From Oscillospiraceae bacterium (GTDB lineage: Bacteria > Bacillota > Clostridia > Oscillospirales > Ruminococcaceae): a DNA stretch of 64,000 bases. The notes beneath the pieces were generated by a model, which saw only the letters and a list, made by a program, of their open reading frames with translations, was not told where the DNA came from and made no database searches. The position numbers were made by a program, and so were the translations under genes. Below are positions 9,010 through 58,223 of the stretch, piece after piece. The first letter of the stretch is position 1, and each line of letters begins with the position of its first letter. The stretch is taken from positions 93,385 to 157,384 of the forward strand of contig JAFUWN010000016.1 of the NCBI GenBank assembly GCA_017483465.1, given 5' to 3'.

Positions 9010-9093
9010 GCCGGCGTGATGGAATTGGCAGACGTGACGGACTCAAAATCCGTTGGTAGCGATACCGTGCGGGTTCAAGTCCCGCCGCCGGCA
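9010..9093 (+). tRNA. tRNA-Leu, anticodon CAA
   Basis: 84-nt class II tRNA. The acceptor strands GCCGGCG and CGCCGGC pair perfectly, with discriminator A73. The anticodon stem ACGGA/TCCGT closes the loop CTCAAAA, giving anticodon CAA (reads UUG). A long variable arm typical of tRNA-Leu is present, and the T arm GCGGG-TTCAAGT-CCCGC is intact. The 3' CCA is not encoded. Confidence 0.97.
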
Positions 9094-11209: not shown

Positions 11210-14200
11210 ATGAACAAGAAAACATTCAGAAAACGTGCAGCCGTCCTCGCTGTGTGTGCAGCTATGATGACATCCGCTCTGCCTATGACACAGATCTCTG
11301 TATCTGCTGCCGGTTCGCTCATCAGCAACGGTACTTTTGAGGGAAGTACTTCCGGCTGGGGCATGTACAAAGAAAGCGGCGGAGCTGGTTCTCTGACTTC
11401 CGAAAACGGCAAACTTGCCCTGAAAGTCAGCAGCACCGGCAAAGTGACTTATGCAATGCAGATGTATTATGACATCATTCCGTTATATCAGAACGGTGTC
11501 TACAGACTGACTTATGATATTTCCTGCACAACAAACAGATTCGTAGAAGGCATGATTCAGCAGAACGGCGGTACTTATCAGGCCTATGTCTGGGATGGTC
11601 TGGACATCAGCCCGACTCCGCAGACTGTCAGCCATGAATTCACTATGGAAGCAGAAACCGATATTATGGCAAAACTTGTATTCAACTGCGGTTTACAGGA
11701 AAAAGACGGCGGTGCTCTTCCGGAACATACTATCTATTTAGATAACGTATCTCTTGAACTCGTAGACGACAGCAAAGTGGATTACAAAGCTTCCAGACCT
11801 TATGCACCGTCTATCATGACCAATCAGGTCGGCTATAAATCCGACAGCAAGAAAACAGCTGTATTCAGAGATATTACCAATCAGACAGAATTTTCCGTGA
11901 TCAATGCTTCTACCAAACAGGCTGTTTATACCGGAAAGCTCTCCGGAGCAATCAATAACAGCTCTGCCAACGAAACGGATTATACAGGAGATTTCTCCAA
12001 AGTCACAACTCCCGGAACCTATTACATCCAGTGTGCCGGCCTTGATAATTCTTATCAGTTCACAATTGAACAGAATCCGTATACCAATCTGCTGACAGAT
12101 TCTGTTAAAATGCTCTATCTCCAGAGATGCGGAACTACTGTGACAGATGCCGATTTCGGTCATGGTGCATGTCATAACACACAGGCTACTGTTTACGGAA
12201 CCAATCAGACAATTGATGTTTCCGGCGGCTGGCACGATGCCGGCGACTACGGCCGCTATGTAGTCCCCGGTGCAAAGGCTGTTGCCGACCTGCTCTATGC
12301 ATATCTTGCAAATCCGTCCATGTACGGCGATAACACAGGCATTCCGGAAAGCGGCAACGGCAAGGCTGATATTCTCGATGAAGCAAAATTTGAACTCGAC
12401 TGGATGTTCAAAATGCAGGCCGCAAACGGCGGTGTTTATCACAAAGTAACCTGTGAAAACTTCCCCGGTTATGTCGCTCCTGAAAAGGAAACTGCTCCGC
12501 TGATTGTGACTCCGGTTTCTACAACTTCTACTGCTGACTTCGCAGGTGCAATGGCTCTGGCCGCAGAAGTTTACAAATCTTATGATTCTGCTTATGCTGC
12601 AAAATGCCTCGATGCCGCCAAGAAAGCATGGAGTTTCCTCGAACAGAATCCGAATCTGATCTTCCAGAATCCGCAGGATATTTCTACCGGTGAATACGGC
12701 GACAAGTCCGATAAAGACGAACGCTACTGGGCAGCCGCTCAGCTCTACAGAGCAACCGGAGAAAGCAAATATCTGACCGCAATGGAAAGCATTTCCACTC
12801 AGACCGGTATGGACTGGGCACTTGTCGGAGATTATGGCAATATCGCTATCCTGACAATGAAAAATGCTGATAAAAATTCCACAGCTTATCAGAACGCAAA
12901 GAGTGCTGTTCTCAAGCAGGCAGATAAATTTGTACAGAATTCTCAGGCTTCTGCTTATGGTGTATCTCTGACAAAGTTTGACTGGGGCAGCAATATGACA
13001 GTTGCCAACTCCGGTATTATCTTAGGTCTGGCAAATCAGCTCACAGGGGAACAGAAATATCTGGATGCCGCTGAAGCTCAGCTGAACTATCTGCTTGGTG
13101 TGAATCCGCTCGGAACAAGCTTCTTCACAGGCTATGGCACAGTATCTCCCGAAAATCCGCATCACAGACCCTCTATGGCTGCCGGAAAAGCTATGAAAGG
13201 CATGTTGGTCGGCGGTGTCAATTCCAATCTGGAAGACAGTGCTGCAAAAGCTTACTGCAACGGTGTTGCTCCGGCTCTGTGCTATGTCGATAATTCTGAA
13301 AGCTATTCTACTAACGAAATCACAATCTACTGGAATTCTCCTCTGACCTATCTGCTGACAATTACTGATTCTGATTCTTCTTCAATCTCTGAATCTACTA
13401 CAGAAGCTACTGAAACAGAATCTCAGAAAACTTCAGAAACTACTACTGAAAATCCGAATGTTTCCGGAATCGCTTACGGCGATGTCAATCTTGACGGCAA
13501 AGTGAATATCTTAGATGTCATCACTCTGAACAAATCCGTACTCGGAAAAGAACCGCTCAACGCACAGCAGAAATTAAATGCCGATGTTGATAACAATGGT
13601 ACGCCGGATTCTGTTGACTCTCTGAATATTATGAAATATATCGTCAAGCTGATTGATACTCTGCCTGTCGGCGGAACAGCTCCTATAACTCCTGTTCAGG
13701 ATACGACAGAACCTACGCAGCAGACGACTGAAACTCAGCAGCAGACCGGAACGATCAAAGACTACGGTACAGCTATGAATGCTTCTGCTTCCACTGTTGC
13801 AGATTTCAGAAAAGGTGCAACTCCGTTGTTCTTCGCTTCTGACGGCTGGACAAACGGCTCCTGCTTCGACTGCTGGTGGCATGAATCCAACACTTCTCTT
13901 GACAATAACATGCTCACACTGACGATTGACAAGGATAAGGGCAATAAGGGCATGTATTCCGGTGCAGAATACAGAACCACTGATTTCTATGGCTACGGCT
14001 ATTATGAAACTTCTATGCAGGCGATCAAGAATGACGGTGTTGTTTCTTCGTTCTTTACTTACACAGGTCCTTCTGACAACAATCCGTGGGATGAAATTGA
14101 TATTGAAGTACTCGGCAAAGATACTACTAAAGTACAGTTCAATTACTATACCAACGGTGCAGGCAATCATGAATATATGTATGACCTCGGCTTTGACGCT

Positions 14201-15196
14201 TCTGAAGGCTTCCATACTTACGGATTTGACTGGCAGCCTGATCATATTGCATGGTTTGTTGACGGAAAAGAAGTCTACAGAGCTACCAGCAATATCCCCT
14301 CTACACCCGGAAAAATCATGATGAATACCTGGCCTGGTGTCAGCGACCCCAGCAGCAAAGACAATGTAATTGACTGGCTGAAAGCTTTTGACGGTAATAC
14401 TCCTATTTCCGCACATTATCAGTGGGTAACTTTTGACAAGAGCAATACTGCACAGACTCAGCCCGAAACACAGCAGACAACTGAAACTCAGCCTGCTACA
14501 GAGACTCAGCAGCAGACAGCTTCCGGCATTACAGATTACGGCACAGCTATGAATGCTTCTGCTACCGCAGTTGCCAACTTTACACAAGGTGAATCTCCTC
14601 TGTTCTTCGCTTCTGACGGATGGACAAACGGTTCCTGCTTCGACTGCTGGTGGTATAAAGAAAATACTGCTGTCAAAGACGGCTATCTGAGTTTAACGAT
14701 TGATAAAGACCGTGCCGGCAAGGGCATGTACTCCGGTGCAGAATACAGAACCACTGATTTCTACAGCTACGGCTATTATGAAACTTCTATGCAGGCGATC
14801 AAGAATGACGGTGTTGTTTCCTCGTTCTTTACCTACACAGGCCCTTCTGACAACAATCCGTGGGATGAAATTGATATTGAAGTACTCGGCAAAGATACTA
14901 CTAAAGTACAGTTCAATTACTATACCAACGGTGAAGGCAATCACGAATATATGTATGACCTCGGCTTTGACGCTTCTCAGGGATTCCATACTTATGGCTT
15001 TGACTGGCAGCCTGATCATATTGCATGGTTCGTTGACGGAAAAGAAGTCTACAGAGCTACCAGCAATATCCCCTCTACGCCCGGAAAAATCATGATGAAT
15101 ACCTGGCCCGGCACAGGCGTTGACGAATGGCTGAAACCTTTCAACGGCAACACACCTCTGACAGCTCGCTATCAGTGGGTAACTTATAACAAATAA
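11210..15196 (+). CDS. Secreted cellulosomal enzyme: CBM4-GH9-dockerin-GH16-GH16
   Basis: 1328 residues. Domains in order: Sec signal peptide (1 to about 33); CBM4-like module (about 35-180); GH9 N-terminal Ig domain (from TNQVGYKSD, about 204); GH9 endoglucanase with the [11 protein letters not shown] motif at about 341 and the general acid in NEITIYWN near 703; Ser/Thr linker; type I dockerin at about 757-820 with calcium loops [12 protein letters not shown] and [12 protein letters not shown]; Thr/Gln linker; GH16 lichenase-type module (about 851-1080) with DEIDIEV; linker; and a second GH16 (about 1109-1328), also with DEIDIEV. It should cut cellulose and beta-1,3-1,4-glucan from a scaffoldin. 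The dockerin is internal rather than C-terminal, and the two GH16 units are nearly identical over long stretches of DNA. Confidence 0.97.
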
Positions 15197-15251: not shown

Positions 15252-17459
15252 TCAGTGATAATTTCTGTAGGCACTCGGTGTCATGCCGGTGATCTGCCGA
15301 AACTGCCGCATAAAATATTTTTCGTCCTCATAGCCGGACTGCCATGCGATTTCCGGCAGATTTTCGGAAGTCGTCAGAAGCAGATATTTTGCATAAGAAA
15401 TCCGGCTCTGAATTAAATCCTGATGAAAGCTGACATTGAACAAGTCTTTATAAGCTGCCCGGAAATAGCCATAGCTGAGATGAAATTCCATACAGGTTTT
15501 CTGTGCATTCCATTCCTGAGAGGGATTCCGGTACATAGCATTTCTCATGTTCATATATTCCTGATAATTCGCAGAATTTCGTTTTTCAGAAAGCTCGGCT
15601 GCCTTTTCGTGCAGCAGTTTCTGCACAGAGGTCAGGCAGGTTTCTGCATTGCAGTCTCCGGTTTCAAATATTCCGACCGCAGTGAGCAGGGCATCCATAC
15701 TGCAATGTTCGCTGTACAGCGGAGAATGCTGTAATAAAATTCTGATTTTATCCTGTATCATAGCCGGATAATCTTCGGGATAATTTCCGATTGCTGCAAA
15801 GACATACAGACCATCGGACAGCTTTCCGCAGAACTGCTTTTTTTCAGAAATAATTTTCTTCATGCATTCGGCATTTTCGACTTCAATCCGGACAGAAAGG
15901 CTTTTCTTATCCAGACTGCCGTGTTCGGCAGATAATCCGGTACGGATCAGGAACAGCAGCAGTTTTTCTTCCGGAAGAGCCTGTTTCAGGGCGATTCTGA
16001 GTTCATTCAGGAATCCGCTGCGATTATACAGACCTGTCACAGTATCATGATATTCTGAAAGATTCTGACATTGCAGAAGTTCATGAATATCGTTTTTCAT
16101 ACGCAGGGCTTCGAGGGCATTGGCAGCGATTTTCAGCCAGTCCCTGAAAACAGAGTCATAGACATCCGGCTTTTCATACTGCAGAATGAAATAGCCGAGT
16201 TCTTTTCCGGCAAAGAAAATCGGACAGAAATACAGAATTTCACGATCAAGATGTTCTTCCGGTATTCCCGGAAACAGTTCTTTTCTGAGAAAGGGTCTTG
16301 GTTCATCAGAGATATTGTTGGCTGTCATCACCGGATAGCAAAGCATGATTTCTTCATCCGTATCAGAATAGGCCGTACTCCGGAAATTCTGACTGCACCA
16401 GTTTTCATACAAGCACAGATACAGGCCTTTCAGATCACGGATTAAATATACAAATTCCTGTAACGTGTGAATATAATCCGAAACCGAACGGCAGACTGTC
16501 AGCTGCTGTTCAAAATTGCCTTCAAAATTCAGGGTAATATATTCCTGTTCCCGGCGGACTTTCCGGAGTTCCTGGCTCAAATGCAGATGATTCACACCGC
16601 AGGTACAGGTATTGCCGGAAACAAGATAGCCTTTTGTAGAAACAGGTTCTGTTTCGATTCCGGTCATCATTTCATAGAGCTGACTGACAGCAGAAATGCC
16701 TACTGCCTTCCGGTTTCTCTGATAAGTCGTCAGCACGGGAGCATGATAGAACCGGCCGCCGACATATTCATAGCCGATAATTGTCACATCTTCCGGCACT
16801 CTGATACCGTATTCCAGGAATTTGTCACATAATCCATAGGCCATATAATCATTGGCACAGATAATGGCCTGCGGCAGTTTTCTGGTTTTATTGATATATT
16901 CCATAGCAAGAGTTTCTCCGGAATTCATCCAGAAATCGCCGTAAATAATATGACTGTCATCCAGAGAAAGCCCGTAATTCCAGAGGGCATTCCGGACACC
17001 CTGTACTCTTTGATGAGAAGTTTCTGTATTTTCAAATCCGGTCAGGACATCAAATTCCGTAAAATGATGTACTTCCAGAAGATGAGCGGCAATTTCTTCA
17101 AAATCCTGTCTGACATTATTATTGATACAGACCATTCCGGGGAGTTCTGCTCCGGTAACGACAACAGGCACATTTCTTTTGATAATTTTCTGATAGATAT
17201 ACTGCTGCAATTCCGGATTCAGAATAGATTCTGCTGTAAGAATCAGGCCGTCAATCCGTTCGGAAACGATCAGGTCATAAATTTTATTCTCCACTTCCGT
17301 GTTGGCATAATATTTCTGAAAATTATAGATATTGGAAAAAACTGCTGTAGAGATATGCAGTTTCTGTGTCTGTTCCAGAATACCGTCAAGCAGCTGACGC
17401 TGTTCGGCCTGAAAAGCCTTGGCTGTGATGATGCCGATCATCCTGTTTTTTTTCTGCAT
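15252..17459 (-). CDS. Hybrid sensor-regulator: sugar-binding domain, degenerate GGDEF, AraC DNA-binding domain
   Basis: 735 residues, cytoplasmic. Residues about 5-290 form a LacI/GalR-type periplasmic-binding fold (MIGIITAKAFQAEQRQLLDG, AIICANDYMAYGLCD, PEDVTIIGYEYVGG) but lack the N-terminal LacI helix-turn-helix. A CTCGVNH motif follows, then a GAF-like middle. A GGDEF-type start (HDTVTGLYNRSGF) follows, whose GGDEF motif has decayed to GKLSDGLYVF, so no cyclase activity is expected. The last 100 residues are an AraC double helix-turn-helix ending RQITGMTPSAYRN. I chose ATG 17459, preceded by AAGGCGG, over an ATG eight codons upstream. It is convergent with the GH9/GH16 gene and is a close architectural twin of the gene at 52254. 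Confidence 0.9.
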   Translation of the reverse strand: MQKKNRMIGIITAKAFQAEQRQLLDGILEQTQKLHISTAVFSNIYNFQKYYANTEVENKIYDLIVSERIDGLILTAESILNPELQQYIYQKIIKRNVPVVVTGAELPGMVCINNNVRQDFEEIAAHLLEVHHFTEFDVLTGFENTETSHQRVQGVRNALWNYGLSLDDSHIIYGDFWMNSGETLAMEYINKTRKLPQAIICANDYMAYGLCDKFLEYGIRVPEDVTIIGYEYVGGRFYHAPVLTTYQRNRKAVGISAVSQLYEMMTGIETEPVSTKGYLVSGNTCTCGVNHLHLSQELRKVRREQEYITLNFEGNFEQQLTVCRSVSDYIHTLQEFVYLIRDLKGLYLCLYENWCSQNFRSTAYSDTDEEIMLCYPVMTANNISDEPRPFLRKELFPGIPEEHLDREILYFCPIFFAGKELGYFILQYEKPDVYDSVFRDWLKIAANALEALRMKNDIHELLQCQNLSEYHDTVTGLYNRSGFLNELRIALKQALPEEKLLLFLIRTGLSAEHGSLDKKSLSVRIEVENAECMKKIISEKKQFCGKLSDGLYVFAAIGNYPEDYPAMIQDKIRILLQHSPLYSEHCSMDALLTAVGIFETGDCNAETCLTSVQKLLHEKAAELSEKRNSANYQEYMNMRNAMYRNPSQEWNAQKTCMEFHLSYGYFRAAYKDLFNVSFHQDLIQSRISYAKYLLLTTSENLPEIAWQSGYEDEKYFMRQFRQITGMTPSAYRNYH

Positions 17460-17571
17460 AAATTCACCGCCTTTTCTGAGCATTTTATTTCTCTGTTCTT
17501 ATCATAGCACAAAATCAGAAGAAAATCAAGAGAAAATCTTCATTTTATCCACCAAATCTGCATATTTTCAG

Positions 17572-17600
17572 TTGTAAGTTTCAATAAAAAGAGCTATAAT
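17572..17600 (+). promoter_or_regulatory. Promoter of a putative non-coding RNA
   Basis: TTGTAA, 17-nt spacer, TATAAT. The transcript should begin near 17607, with no plus-strand reading frame of note before the terminator-like hairpin at 17755-17797. Confidence 0.8.
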
Positions 17601-17606
17601 AAATAC

Positions 17607-17806
17607 CGTAAACGATTTAGAAATTTTCTGTTTTCTGTATACAGGTGTATTTGTGCAGAAAATTGCTCATAAGGCGGAAAATTAAATTCTCTTTCATAGT
17701 ATTTATGGCTGAAAAGCCTGTTGAATTTCATAGTATTTTTTAATTCCTTGATATAAGTATCCGGCTGTGGGGCACCTGACACAGCGTGTGGATACTTTCT
17801 TTTTAT
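17607..17806 (+). ncRNA. Putative structured non-coding RNA of about 200 nt
   Basis: A consensus promoter and a terminator-like 3' hairpin bracket about 200 nt without a credible gene. Hairpin 1: AATTTTCTG (17622-17630) pairs with CAGAAAATT (17656-17664). Hairpin 2: AAATTC (17684-17689) can pair with GAATTT (17723-17728) around a GGC-TGAAAA-GCC tip, with TTTCATAGTATTT repeated twice nearby. Hairpin 3: AAGTATCC (17755-17762) with GGATACTT (17790-17797), enclosing GCTGTG/CACAGC, then a T-rich run. The loop of hairpin 1 contains CAGGTG (17642-17647) and that of hairpin 3 contains CACCTG (17773-17778), which are fully complementary, suggesting a loop-loop contact. Size fits 6S or raiA-type RNAs, but I cannot assign a family. 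The next gene has its own promoter. Confidence 0.6.
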
Positions 17807-17910: not shown

Positions 17911-19041
17911 ATGAATAAAAAAGATCTGGCCGAACTCAAAAAACATTTTAACGCTTCTGACGATCTGCTGACGATTCAGAAAGTCTTTACCTGCTTTATT
18001 GATTCTGAAAAAACAAGAAAATGTCAGAATGTCCGCAGTTTTGCTGAAATTCCCGATGAAGAAATGTCCGTGCTCTATCAGACTTTCGCTAAAGTCCTCA
18101 AAGGTACGCTCGGAAAAGGCCTTGTTGAATATCCGTTCCCGAATGAAGTCTATGAAGAAGATCAGAGTCAGAACCTGTTATGGAATCTGCTTGATAAAAG
18201 CCTCGATGATGAAGAACAGCTCGAAAAACTGATTTCTCATATTGAGAAAAATATGATCTATACGCTGCCTTATGCTCTGTTCATTGCTCAGTGTACTTAT
18301 ACTGTATTCGAGAAAGACAAGCTCGGAGAGAAAAATAAATATGACAGTCATGACTATCATTTTCTGCTCTGTGCCGTTTGTCCGGTGGAATCCCGTGTTG
18401 ACGGCCTGATCTATGACGAGGAAGAAAATAATATCGTCCGGAAACTGACATTTGACAGAGTTGTCGCCGATGCCCCGACTGACGGCTTCTTATTCCCGAC
18501 TTTCACAGGCCGCGGCCCTGATGTCAATCATGTATTATATTATGCCAAAAAAGCCAAAGACCCGAATACTTCTATTATTGAAGATGTTCTCGGCTGTAAA
18601 TTTATCTTATCTGCTGATGAGGAAAAAGAAACATTCAGAGCCGTACTTGATAAAGCGGTCGGTGAGGAACTTAATCTGAATGTCATTGCCTCTGTCAATG
18701 AGAAGATTCAGGATTATGCCAAGACATTCGCAAACGAACCCGAACCCCCTGTTGTCAGTGACATTATGGTCAGAGATATTTTATTAGACTCCGGTATCAG
18801 CCAGGAAAAAGCCGAAGCCGCTCAGCAGTTATATAAAGAAACTGTCGAAGATAATTATTTTACGGCATCCAATCTGACGGAAAATAAGACAACTCTGAGT
18901 TCTTCCGGCGTAACGGTCAGCATCAGCGGCGATGCAACTGATAAAATCACAACTCGTCTGATTGACGGCAGAAAATTTCTGATGATTTCCCTTGATGACC
19001 CGGAAGTGACTGTCAACGGCTTTCAGATGAAAATTCAGTGA
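17911..19041 (+). CDS. DUF4317 family protein
   Basis: 376-residue cytoplasmic protein that I recognise as the Clostridia family DUF4317 from its start (MNKKDLAELKKHF), its length and the segment LLCAVCPVESRVDGLIYDE. The biochemical role is unknown. It is acidic, with no membrane helix. TCAGGAG precedes the ATG. The SUKH-like gene follows after 9 nt, so the two are likely co-transcribed. Confidence 0.88.
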   Translation: MNKKDLAELKKHFNASDDLLTIQKVFTCFIDSEKTRKCQNVRSFAEIPDEEMSVLYQTFAKVLKGTLGKGLVEYPFPNEVYEEDQSQNLLWNLLDKSLDDEEQLEKLISHIEKNMIYTLPYALFIAQCTYTVFEKDKLGEKNKYDSHDYHFLLCAVCPVESRVDGLIYDEEENNIVRKLTFDRVVADAPTDGFLFPTFTGRGPDVNHVLYYAKKAKDPNTSIIEDVLGCKFILSADEEKETFRAVLDKAVGEELNLNVIASVNEKIQDYAKTFANEPEPPVVSDIMVRDILLDSGISQEKAEAAQQLYKETVEDNYFTASNLTENKTTLSSSGVTVSISGDATDKITTRLIDGRKFLMISLDDPEVTVNGFQMKIQ

Positions 19042-51988: not shown

Positions 51989-52336
51989 ATGAAGACACCG
52001 CAATATCAGGAAACCAGAAACATCCTGCACCAGAGAATCCGTACCCTGCGCAAGAAAGCACATATCACTCAGGAGAAAATGGCACAGCGTCTGGGCATCA
52101 GCCGCCGGACATATGCCAATTATGAACGGGGCATTCATGCCATGCCCGTGGAAATTCTCGTCTGCATTGCAGAAATGTTTGATACTACGCTGGATTATTT
52201 AGCCGGCAGAACCATGCCGCCGGAACAGGAACTGTCAGAAAGCGAGGAGATTTATGACAGAACCGTCCCGAATCGGAATCATCATGGGAAAGCTCTACAA
52301 GACAGCCAACCGCCGGCAGCTGACCGGCATACTTGA
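51989..52336 (+). CDS. XRE family helix-turn-helix protein
   Basis: 115 residues. Helix-turn-helix at about residues 17-70 (IRTLRKKAHITQEKMAQRL, GISRRTYANYERG). The body ends naturally near ELSESEEIYD, but the frame continues another 27 residues inside the next gene. AAGAGGAGG precedes the ATG. It overlaps the hybrid regulator at 52254 by 83 nt in another frame, so the two are translationally coupled and may act together. Probably binds DNA near the pectate lyase promoter, which is inference. Confidence 0.88.
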   Translation: MKTPQYQETRNILHQRIRTLRKKAHITQEKMAQRLGISRRTYANYERGIHAMPVEILVCIAEMFDTTLDYLAGRTMPPEQELSESEEIYDRTVPNRNHHGKALQDSQPPAADRHT

Positions 52337-54440
52337 AGAAGCATTCTCTAAAAATATCAGTGCCTGTATTTTTACCATGCAGGAAGAACCTCTGCAAGTC
52401 AGTTTCGGAGAAGAAAGCATTCTGCATATGATACAGTTTTCTCTGCTTGACGGGGTGATCTTTGTCCCCTATTCGTTCGCAGCCGCCGAGTACGCCAAGG
52501 AAATTGAACGCTTTTTACTGGAAAACTGTACCAAACCGGTTATCCGAATCGGCATTGAGCCGAATCCGTTTGTACAGGTCTGGTATCATGACCGTTCAGA
52601 AATGGCCGAAATTACCCGACACCTGATTCAGCAGCACGGCTGCCGGAATCTGCTGTGTCTGACAGGGCCTGCCGAAAACCCTGTTTCACTCGAAAGACTC
52701 GCCGGATTCCGGGAAGCTCTGACCGAAGCAGGAATTTCTTATCAGGAAGAAAATGCTGTTTACGGCGATTTTTATATTTTCACAGCTCAGCAGCTTGCTC
52801 AGGAATTTGCCGACGGAAAACGGCCTCTGCCGGATGCGGTTGTCTGTGCCAATGATATGATGGCCGTTTCTCTTTGTGATGCACTCCGGAAATATAATAT
52901 TTCTGTTCCGGAAGATATTCTTGTCACCGGCTATGACGGTGTACTGGAATCTGCCCTGCATATGCCGGCTGTGACGACCTATTCTCCGTCATGGGAACAG
53001 CTCGGCAGAAATGCCGTCTGCCAGCTTTATGAACTGATCACCGGAAAAAGCCTTGTCAGCGGAAAGTCCGAAACAGGCCGGCTGCTCTGTCGGGAAAGCT
53101 GCGGCTGTCATAACCTGTCTGCTCTTGCCGATCAGATAGATTTTAACTATCCCCGTCTGGAAGAAAATTATATCGACAGCAGTCTTTCGACAAAATTATT
53201 ATCCTGTACTACGCTGGAAGGCTTTGTCAGAACTATGTATGATCTGAATTTTGTCTTTTTCGATCCGGAATATTATGACAGAGAAGCTTATGCTCTCTGC
53301 CTGTGTGAACACTGGAACGAGGATAAACATCATCCTCATCAGCACGGCGGCTATTCCGAACAAATGCTCCGTATGCATTATGACGGCAGTTATACGGTTT
53401 TTCCTATTTCTGCTATGCTCCCGCCGGATTTTCAGAATTCTGCTGTTCCGACCGCCACTTTCTTTACTTCGATCTATTTTCAGAACCGCTGTTTCGGCTA
53501 TTCCATTCTGCAATATCAGAACATTGCCGACAGTATCAACCCGTATTATCTGCGTTTCTGCCGGGAAATCAGCAACGCTCTGGAATTTCTCCGTGTCCGG
53601 AACATGCTAAAGAGTCTTGCCTATCATGATTATCTCTCTCAGGTGCGTGATACGCTGACAGGTCTGTATAATTTAAATCAGCTGCCGTATCTCTGGAAAG
53701 ATTATCTTTCTGATGTCAGAAACCGGAAAGAATCCTGTTTCTGGATTGCCCTGCATATCGCCGGATTATACCGCATTGCTGAAAACGGCGGAACACTCCA
53801 GAAAGACAAGCTCCTTGTCGCCTTTGCCGAATATCTGCAAAATACTTGCAGCTATCATGAAAAATGTCTCCGTGCCGGAGAAAGCGATTTTTTGATCTTA
53901 GGCTCAGAACCGGCTTCTTCTCAGTATCATAATTTATTAATTCAGAATCTGAGAGATCATTTTGAACAATATCAGCGTTCGCTGAAACAAATTGCCCTGC
54001 CGCTGCAAGCCGCTGTCCTGTCTGATGAGGCCATTCAGATTCTCACGGAACAAACTGTCACATCCGCTGCCGCCGGACTCATGACCGAAGCTCATAACAA
54101 TAAAGCCACTTATTCAGAACAGCTTCATTATAAAGATCTGAAAATCATCCGGAATCAGATCTATCAGAATCCCGAACAGGAATGGTCTGTTTCTCTTTGC
54201 AGTCAGGAACTCAATATCAGCAGTTCTTATTTCTGCAAAATTTATCAGAAAGCTTTCGGTGTCACCTGTGCATATGATATTCGCCGTTCCAAGATGGAAC
54301 ACGGGAAATATCTGCTTCTGCATACGGCCGATACTCTACAGGAAATCTCCAGAAAATGCGGTTATGACTACTCGCATTTTATGAGAACTTTCAAGAAATT
54401 TTTCCAGATGACTCCGACAGAATACCGCCGTGGAAAATAA
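52254..54440 (+). CDS. Hybrid sensor-regulator, paralogue of the 15252 gene
   Basis: 728 residues. Sugar-binding-protein-like sensor (about 5-285; SRIGIIMGKLYKTANRRQL, AVVCANDMMAVSLCD, PEDILVTGYDGV), the same CGCHN cysteine motif as its twin, a GAF-like middle, a GGDEF remnant (RDTLTGLYNLNQL) whose signature is GESDF, and a C-terminal AraC double helix-turn-helix ending KFFQMTPTEYRRG. No LacI helix-turn-helix, but the XRE gene immediately upstream supplies one in trans. GAGGAG lies 5 nt before the ATG. It is divergent from the pectate lyase gene, a natural target. Confidence 0.9.
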   Translation: MTEPSRIGIIMGKLYKTANRRQLTGILEEAFSKNISACIFTMQEEPLQVSFGEESILHMIQFSLLDGVIFVPYSFAAAEYAKEIERFLLENCTKPVIRIGIEPNPFVQVWYHDRSEMAEITRHLIQQHGCRNLLCLTGPAENPVSLERLAGFREALTEAGISYQEENAVYGDFYIFTAQQLAQEFADGKRPLPDAVVCANDMMAVSLCDALRKYNISVPEDILVTGYDGVLESALHMPAVTTYSPSWEQLGRNAVCQLYELITGKSLVSGKSETGRLLCRESCGCHNLSALADQIDFNYPRLEENYIDSSLSTKLLSCTTLEGFVRTMYDLNFVFFDPEYYDREAYALCLCEHWNEDKHHPHQHGGYSEQMLRMHYDGSYTVFPISAMLPPDFQNSAVPTATFFTSIYFQNRCFGYSILQYQNIADSINPYYLRFCREISNALEFLRVRNMLKSLAYHDYLSQVRDTLTGLYNLNQLPYLWKDYLSDVRNRKESCFWIALHIAGLYRIAENGGTLQKDKLLVAFAEYLQNTCSYHEKCLRAGESDFLILGSEPASSQYHNLLIQNLRDHFEQYQRSLKQIALPLQAAVLSDEAIQILTEQTVTSAAAGLMTEAHNNKATYSEQLHYKDLKIIRNQIYQNPEQEWSVSLCSQELNISSSYFCKIYQKAFGVTCAYDIRRSKMEHGKYLLLHTADTLQEISRKCGYDYSHFMRTFKKFFQMTPTEYRRGK

Positions 54441-55962: not shown

Positions 55963-58080
55963 TTACCAGATATTGTTATAGACTGTTCCGTTATACATCA
56001 CTTTATCATTTGCCTTGAACATTTCGGAAACAGTCACGATCTGCCAGCCCTGCGATTTCATATAGGGTGCGAGATATTCCATCGCCTGAGCAGTCGTTTC
56101 ATAATTTTCATGCACTAACACAACCTGTCCGTTGAGCGTGCCGTTATTCATTGCGGTTACAATCGTATTGATAATATCATCTTTGGAAGCACCTTCCCAG
56201 TCCATCGAGTACACACCGCAGTTGATCAGCGGTACACCTGCAACCTGCTTGAATGTATCATTTACAGAGAGGAACGGCGGACGGATTAAAAATTCTTCCT
56301 GTCCGGTGATGGCAGTCAGAGCAGAGGCACATTTATTGATTTCCTCTTTCATCTGATCAGCAGAAAGCTTTGTCATATCCGGATGTGACCATGTATGATT
56401 GGCAATTTCAAAGCCGAGTTCCTGAGCACGTTTGATTTCCGCTTCATTTCCGGCAATACGCTCGCCCCAGTAGAAGAAAGTCGCATGGAAGCCATTTTCA
56501 GCAAGAGCATTCTGAATTCTGGTCGGACAGTCACTGCCTGCGATCGGGCCGTCATCAAAAGCGATTGCAACCATAGGCTTAGACTTGTCAATCCAGGAAA
56601 TATCAGCCTGATTATACCATTGCCCCTCGACACGTTCTTCTTTTGTTTCTACAGGGTCAGTTGTAACAGGTGTTACGGGTTCAGAAACGGGCTTGAGTAA
56701 CTGCTGTTTGAGCAGAACCAGATCATAGATATTAACATTGCCGTCATCATTCATATCAGAGTTGATAAAATTTTCCTGTAAGAATGACAATCTGCCCAGC
56801 AGATATTTATGCATAGCGATCAGATCAGCGACATTGACAGAGCCATCACTGTTGACATCGCCTTTTTTACTGCCGGAAGAAGAAGTATTTCCGGAAGCAC
56901 TAATTTTCGTACCATCCGGAGCGATCACAGCTTCATCAATATAGAAATCTGTCGTACTGTCGGCAGTTTCGACATAGAGCAGAAGATTGCTTGCACCGGC
57001 CGGAATTTCAAAGCCTGTATTGGCGAGCTGAACCCATTCACCGGATTTTCCTGTTGCAGAAGCGATATTATCATAATGTTCTTCGCCGTCAGAGCCTTTA
57101 TACTGAAGCGTCAGCTTGAAATCTTCAGAAGCCGTTTGATTCTGCATAGCCATGACACTGAAGCTGTAAGAATTTCCGGGGATAAAATCACTGGTACTGA
57201 GACTATAGGAAGTACCATTCCAGGAATCTGTTCTGCCGGTAACGGAGAGAATCCCATCAGAAGCCGAAACACTGGCATCGCCACGGCCTGACCAGCCGTT
57301 CTTGCCGGATTCAAAATCAGAATGCAGATAATAGCCGTCTGCATCCGGTTCTTTTTCGGTAACAGGCTGCGTTTCGGGAATATCACCGCCGACTGTCATT
57401 TCATTTTTGAGTACAGTCGCAGAACCGGCACTCTGATACCCCTCAATATTCAGAGCAGCTTCATAGAGCTTTCCGGCCGGAAGTCCTTTTTCTTCCCATG
57501 CAGCGAAATGCGAAGCGACATTGATAACACCCTCTGTCCGCTTATCTTTGCGGACACTCCAATACTGATCAAAAGTCGTATTCCCTACAATAGACGGCTG
57601 ATCGACACGGACAGTTTTATAAATATCATAGACTGCACCGTCAATGGTAGCTTCACCGAGATAGCCCTCATCTCCGGGCGGTCTCCAGCTGCCCCAGCTG
57701 TCTACGATATAATATTCAACCAGAGGTTCTTTTGTCCAGCCGTATACACACATATAAGAATTTCCGTCAGGATGATAATCCACATTATAATCAAATGCAA
57801 TATTCCCGATTTCTTTATATGTCTGTGTGCAGTCGAATTTCTTTCCGGTACGGAACAGACAGTTATTAATATTACTCCATTCACAGCTGAAAGTTCCGTT
57901 TCCGGTCAGTTCCATTTTGGTATTGCCGGTATCTTTCCAGAGTTCGTAGTTATAGCCGTCTTCAATGCCTGTATCACAGTCATAGAGGACAGTAGCCGCA
58001 CTGACATAACTGATCGGCATAGCCGCAGTCAGCATAGCCGCAGAAAGAATACCGCCTGCAATTTTATGTGCTGTAATCAC
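55963..58080 (-). CDS. Secreted cellulosomal xylanase/acetylesterase: GH11-CBM22-dockerin-CE4
   Basis: 705 residues. Domains in order: signal peptide (1 to about 28, ISYVSA); GH11 xylanase (about 30-235) with the nucleophile Glu in [12 protein letters not shown] and the acid Glu in [12 protein letters not shown]22 (about 252-395); type I dockerin (about 404-465) with [12 protein letters not shown] and [12 protein letters not shown]; linker; CE4 polysaccharide deacetylase (about 500-690) with the metal motif FDDGP and HTWSH. This order is known from R. flavefaciens XynB. I chose the GTG at 58080, with AAAGGGGG 8 nt upstream; ATG codons further upstream fall within the promoter. Degrades and deacetylates xylan. 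Confidence 0.96.
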
Positions 58081-58144: not shown

Positions 58145-58223
58145 CCCACAAAATGCAGATTCGGTGGACAAAATGAAGTTTTTGTCTGCTCTGACAGATT
58201 TCTGTTTTTTCACAGAATTTTCA

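Follow-up and report, generated by a model that had tools for sequence, protein, structure and literature searches.

Positions 17608-17804 (plus strand) of the window, the whole stretch of 64,000 nt from an Oscillospiraceae bacterium that was analysed, are judged from their sequence to form a free-standing RNA gene, equipped with a promoter and a terminator of its own. The product, about 197 nt long, is best read as a small RNA and a member of the xylan regulon that the divergently encoded LacI/AraC-type regulator governs; it would pair with the leaders of mRNAs, and a probability of roughly 60% is given to this reading. The locus looks like a genuine RNA gene, not described before although of a general type that is known, and its promoter is unusually informative. 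The promoter element, overlooked in an earlier reading made from the letters of the window only (the sequence-only reading), is the feature most telling with regard to function. The features on which the argument is built are the following.

15252-17483, minus strand: divergent regulator gene, with a LacI-type sugar-binding domain and an AraC helix-turn-helix (Pfam).
17539-17566, plus strand: putative AraC-type direct-repeat operator, half-sites TTCATTTTAT and TGCATATTTT 20 nt apart, a match to a degenerate 28-mer.
17572-17600, plus strand: promoter as read from the letters, with -35 box TTGTAA (17572-17577), 17-nt spacer and -10 box TATAAT (17595-17600).
17608-17804, plus strand: small RNA, about 197 nt, its start inferred from the -10 box; recognized by conservation and the lack of a conserved ORF.
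17608-17619, plus strand: GTAAACGATTTA at the inferred RNA start; GWAAACGWTT in 8 of 8 homologues, with looser forms at some hydrolase promoters.
17633-17660, plus strand: hairpin P1, TTCTGTA (17633-17639) with TGCAGAA (17654-17660).
17642-17648, plus strand: loop 1 contact, CAGGTGT, complement of 17772-17778.
17687-17701, plus strand: invariant stretch ATTCTCTTTCATAGT (AUUCUCUUUCAUAGU), the proposed seed, exact in 8 of 8 homologues.
17726-17734, plus strand: second TTTCATAGT copy, a partial repeat of the proposed seed.
17755-17804, plus strand: terminator hairpin and T-rich tract, likewise read from the letters, with stems nearly invariant in the eight homologues.
17772-17778, plus strand: loop 3 contact, GCACCTG, within the terminator loop, complement of loop 1.
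17911-19041, plus strand: DUF4317 gene (Pfam PF14199) downstream of the RNA, with its own TTGACA/TATAAT promoter.
55963-58080, minus strand: GH11 xylanase / CBM / dockerin / polysaccharide deacetylase gene (Pfam) under the second operator.
58150-58177, minus strand: putative second operator copy in the window, an exact match to the degenerate 28-mer.

The consensus promoter and the terminator hairpin that had been proposed to enclose the locus were both confirmed, with TATAAT located 17 nt past a TTG-type -35 box in all eight homologues. The intrinsic terminator consists of an outer stem, AAGTATCC (17755-17762) paired with GGATACTT (17790-17797), and an inner stem, GCTGTG (17764-17769) paired with CACAGC (17780-17785), and its T-rich tract ends at 17804. 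No ORF is conserved at the locus on either strand across the eight homologues, which bears out the earlier description of about 200 nt with no credible gene. With its own promoter, an intrinsic terminator and no conserved ORF, the RNA is free-standing in the manner expected of a trans-acting small RNA. The DUF4317 promoter is present in loci both with and without the RNA, which argues against the RNA as the leader of that gene. Given this promoter, the conservation of the RNA and the absence of an Rfam family, the view that this is an unassigned RNA gene, and not simply the leader of its neighbour, is supported.

A DNA search of 38 genomes of the genus gave matches in ten, of which eight were the RNA gene and two (G031 and G037) a short fragment. 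The covariance model built from the eight homologues recovered the same eight of 38 genomes and, among 297 genomes of the family, two matches, both within the same genus; with 62 candidates scored per genome in the genus and eight in the family, this search may miss remote homologues. A pattern scan of named genomes returned seven contigs, all from metagenome assemblies of Ruminococcus (five) or Oscillospiraceae (two), and two of these carry the source names goat omasum and roe deer rumen. DUF4317 was found in 31 of the 38 genus genomes. Thirty of its loci were fetched, the upstream part was visible in 25, and the RNA was judged by eye to be present in seven and absent in 18. The RNA of G015 is followed by an insertion, which occupies the gap between the RNA and DUF4317 (G015:C243; L035, L006) and contains promoter-like sequence and two tiny ORFs, MGEGFGGGVDW and MGEGIGGGIGF, both with good ribosome-binding sites. 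Within a tree of 29 DUF4317 proteins, all eight RNA-bearing genomes fall inside a clade of 12 (100/100). The presence of the RNA on this tree needs three changes, for example one gain and two losses; the inner forks are weak, and none of the bootstrap trees has a branch that separates the eight RNA-bearing genomes from the rest.

Upstream of the -35 box, all eight homologues contain a block of the form TTCATTTT-RTCCACC-AAATC-TGCATATTT, with small variations, that includes a direct repeat 20 nt apart. Direct repeats of this spacing are expected of AraC-type regulators. From the start of TCCAC in the putative operator to the TTG of the -35 box the distance is 24 nt, and the degenerate 28-mer matched twice in the window and never in 100 shuffles. 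When the 20-bp operator core was searched with up to three mismatches, 23 matches were obtained in 16 genomes, compared with one for the reversed pattern. Eight of these are located at the RNA promoter and six before GH11 (four, one of them in the window) or GH43 (two) genes, which were assigned by Pfam and have signal-peptide-like starts. Eight of the remaining nine were read (L189 was left out); one of these is at a tRNA-like sequence, and the others fall within other genes. A GH30 gene that also encodes CBM and dockerin has a diverged copy, with seven core mismatches, about 500 nt ahead of it. Among 22 hand-chosen promoters (eight RNA, four GH11, two GH43, one GH30 and seven divergent regulator slots, mostly GH10), every one has TTG 24 nt after the start of TCCAC, and two also have an earlier TTG at 19. 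A matrix built from 21 sites, with the GH30 site left out, was scanned over 464 kb of the genome and scored three sites above 9, namely those of the RNA (58.4), GH11 (55.4) and GH30 (35.2). The xylanase promoters (GH10, GH11, GH43 and GH30) share with the RNA promoter both the direct repeat and the 24-nt spacing, and those of GH10 share the divergent regulator in addition, whereas what they drive are enzyme genes and not a short terminated RNA. By itself, the operator unites several hydrolase genes into one regulon. The GWAAACGWTT element at the inferred RNA start resembles a LacI/CcpA-type operator and may be one.

Orthologues of the divergent regulator with 70-100% identity are present in exactly the eight RNA-bearing genomes, the G015 copy being a fragment at the end of a contig, and orthologues of 48-58% are present in 17 other genomes, in one of them in pieces. 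Within the clade of 12, the four RNA-less genomes have no close regulator either, with none in G029, G030 and G032, the last being a genome only 57% complete, and a 29% paralogue in G033. Sixteen of the distant regulator loci were read, one with only 7 nt upstream, and nine of them show the start of a divergent CBM-GH10-xylanase-like protein; Pfam, applied to four of these nine, returned GH10 for all four. Given that GH10-like genes diverge from the same regulator in these relatives, the RNA occupies the position of their xylanase gene. On the divergent side of the regulator, the leaders of three loci (L156, L158 and L161, in G014, G008 and G007) share AGGCATGACGGACGT near the start site, possibly another conserved leader element. 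The window itself encodes a second LacI/AraC-built regulator at 52254-54440 (plus strand), about 30% identical to the one adjacent to the RNA, and at 11210-15196 (plus strand) a single protein with GH9, dockerin and two GH16 domains, the GH16 pair being apparently near-identical.

Alignment of the homologues retained one part of the fold that had been proposed from the window and discarded another. The complementarity of the loops, CAGGTG (17642-17647) with CACCTG (17773-17778), is kept in 8 of 8 homologues, where all 56 cells over seven pairs are standard pairs. One pair is A-U in five homologues, G-C in two and G-U in one, giving a single A-U/G-C double change, and a wobble occurs at another. 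A helix around the first loop is also kept; this is P1, in which two pairs changed on both sides and 98.2% of cells are paired. The 9-bp stem AATTTTCTG/CAGAAAATT originally drawn here is not conserved, the covarying helix being that of P1, and the middle GGC-TGAAAA-GCC stem is missing from the other seven homologues (a gap in five and other letters in two). Pairings confined to the window, including that of GGCGGAAA with TTTCCGCC beyond the terminator, were rejected. Taken together, P1, the terminator hairpin and the loop pairing place 98.3% of 232 cells in standard pairs, compared with at most 50.0% when the partners are slid. The terminator stems hardly vary across the homologues and carry little covariation information. 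At the loop contact, the changes are few and may represent one or two events, and covariation is slight, with 59 of 500 shuffles scoring as high. The folding energy of the window's copy by itself is unremarkable (z -1.76, with 11 of 200 shuffles as low), and the case for a structured RNA therefore rests on conservation. In several homologues the terminator loop is palindromic (GAUGCAUC), so that a contact between two RNA molecules through this loop is conceivable; the loop of the window is not palindromic and keeps its complement to loop 1.

The proposed seed is the feature that connects the RNA to a candidate target. Copies resembling TTTCATAGT number from one to three per homologue, with just one in two of the eight. 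The exact 15-nt complement of the seed, TACTATGAAAGAGAA, occurs at one site in the genome besides the RNA itself, and this site is in the GH30 leader, where it spans -44 to -30 relative to the start codon and a pairing of 15 bp is predicted. Among 362 leaders in 464 kb, as delivered by a simple purpose-built gene finder from stretches of this one genome that were picked with the GH30 match already known and GH30 included, the GH30 leader ranks first as partner of the seed block. This ranking uses uninterrupted-helix scores; RNAduplex, which placed GH30 fifth of 362, was set aside for its long gapped duplexes, and GH30 falls to sixth of 362 when the entire RNA is the query. None of 2000 shuffled seeds matched the pairing of the real seed with the GH30 leader, and one of 100 found an equally good partner anywhere among the 362 leaders. 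Next in rank is a leader that precedes the gene for a 297-aa protein, which begins with a signal-like sequence and has no Pfam assignment; pairing at this leader would cover the ribosome-binding site. The GH11 and GH43 leaders of the same regulon gave no pairing with the seed. Given that the sole exact match leads a gene at which the same operator was found independently, the match between the seed and GH30 is the best hint to function.

The wider occurrence of the complement depends on its length. The short form ACTATGAAAG is not enriched: the genome has it 21 times, counting the RNA itself once, and the reversed pattern 16 times. When one mismatch at most was allowed, the 15-mer matched 25 times in the eight RNA-bearing genomes (eight being the RNA) against seven times reversed, and twice against four times reversed in six genomes without the RNA. 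Six of the 17 non-self matches are starts of GGDEF genes. GGDEF is a doubtful target, given that the GGDEF start of the source genome has no match and that of the RNA-less G005 has one. In several relatives (L111-L114, L116, L117, L119) a gene for a GGDEF membrane protein directly follows a PP2C-type phosphatase gene, and elsewhere, for example in G033, it is replaced by other sequence. It is not evident that the seed is left unpaired more than other parts of the RNA (0.41-0.77 versus 0.41-0.47), and in three of eight homologues its value is the lower one. The GH30 leader (L195:8600-8930, G000:C50) is itself of note, being about 430 nt long with repeated GGGG-hairpin-CCCC-ACATTCCCCC units, four as counted by eye. 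It folds far better than its shuffles (z -5.97, 0 of 100) and has no Rfam match at gathering score.

The same fold and genomic position could also be read as a cis-acting attenuator, left over as the leader of a lost xylanase gene, in which the 5' part would refold with the 3' half of the terminator and allow read-through into DUF4317. Such an origin is consistent with the same promoter driving a GH10 gene from the same place in distant relatives, and the pseudoknot-free predicted fold in 6 of 8 homologues is indeed a long-range duplex with the 3' half of the terminator, which contains the same loop pairs and competes with the two-hairpin form. Given that the isolated loop duplex has an energy of -9.7 to -12.7 kcal/mol before penalties, energy does not choose between the dumbbell and the long-range duplex. 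Complementarity between the 5' and 3' parts beyond the loop 8-mer beats most shuffles in six homologues (3 to 26 of 300 as good), but it is ordinary in the window (90 of 300) and in G012 (118 of 300), where the duplex is not favoured. P1 moreover covaries as a hairpin, DUF4317 is served by its own promoter whether or not the RNA is there, and the invariant seed would need another reason, all of which makes an attenuator distinctly unlikely. The RNA could instead bind a protein or act as a sponge, its closed fold presenting the repeated UUUCAUAGU copies to an RNA-binding protein. Each homologue has one to three copies of the motif, in keeping with such a role; however, the number drops to one in two of the eight, the partner protein is hypothetical, and the match of the seed to GH30 is left unexplained, so that this too is an unlikely account.

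A messenger for a small peptide is very improbable: short ORFs do exist, with closed ones of up to 38 aa on the plus strand, but across the eight homologues none stays in place or retains its sequence, and few have a ribosome-binding-like site. The size of the locus had earlier been taken as a hint of 6S or raiA RNA. Its length of about 200 nt and its free-standing nature are indeed shared with 6S RNA (RF00013) and raiA RNA (RF03072), whereas its sequence matches neither. None of 4227 Rfam families matched the RNA site at gathering score, and the sole such match in the whole window is a tRNA at 9010-9093. With E values allowed up to 10, the site gave eight matches, neither 6S nor raiA among them, and all were rejected as falling below gathering score, the best being Histone3 (20.9 bits versus 34, E 0.0032). 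A 6S candidate sits elsewhere in the genome, on another contig (C90:38388-38594; L062, G000), and scores 45.9 bits (E 5.4e-8), just short of the gathering score, 46.4. For raiA there was no match genome-wide, in a search that was equally silent in all its control genomes. The spread of the RNA is also narrow, with 8 of 38 genomes in the genus and no other genus among the 297 family genomes, and a housekeeping RNA of the 6S or raiA type, suggested by length alone, is scarcely credible.

In the open-access literature, no report of the present RNA was found among the matches listed. The nearest known RNAs in function, with the role of the present RNA as deduced here, are GibS and FopS, small RNAs of Bacteroides thetaiotaomicron that are linked to glycan use. 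According to the available portion of their description, GlcNAc-containing glycans induce GibS, which in turn represses a GH13 mRNA, both RNAs pair with translation initiation regions, GibS by means of two seeds, FopS is about 65-70 nt long, and both are bound by RbpB (PMC11697453). They differ from the present RNA in phylum and in being RbpB-bound, FopS is shorter, and that portion describes no loop-loop fold in them; nothing points to kinship with the present RNA.

Under the reading preferred here, of a small RNA within the xylan regulon, the regulator would sense a xylan-derived sugar and, via the operator, turn on the xylanase genes and the RNA together. The RNA would form the P1 and terminator hairpins, the loops of which would pair with each other and keep the molecule closed, and its middle would carry the invariant, partly repeated stretch, whose complement reads ACUAUGAAAGAGAAU, for pairing with mRNA leaders near the ribosome-binding site. 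The best target candidate is the GH30 mRNA of the same regulon, and because the pairing site is upstream of the ribosome-binding site, activation of GH30 is as possible as repression. The outcome would be a tuned output of secreted fibre-degrading enzymes. More specifically, and only tentatively, a gut Ruminococcus clade may have placed a regulatory RNA in the xylanase slot, where the seed of this loop-closed RNA would adjust the translation of dockerin-bearing enzymes, GH30 first.

Given that its promoter is of the same kind as those of the xylan-degrading enzymes, the RNA probably helps to tune fibre digestion in these plant-fibre-digesting gut bacteria. If true, hemicellulose digestion in a Gram-positive fibre degrader would have an RNA arm of the feed-forward type, and the promoter of an enzyme gene, ancestrally a xylan-responsive divergent promoter, would have been reused for an RNA. 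For hemicellulose digestion in Ruminococcus, this would also combine the RNA with its regulator, the operator and a first target in one testable package.
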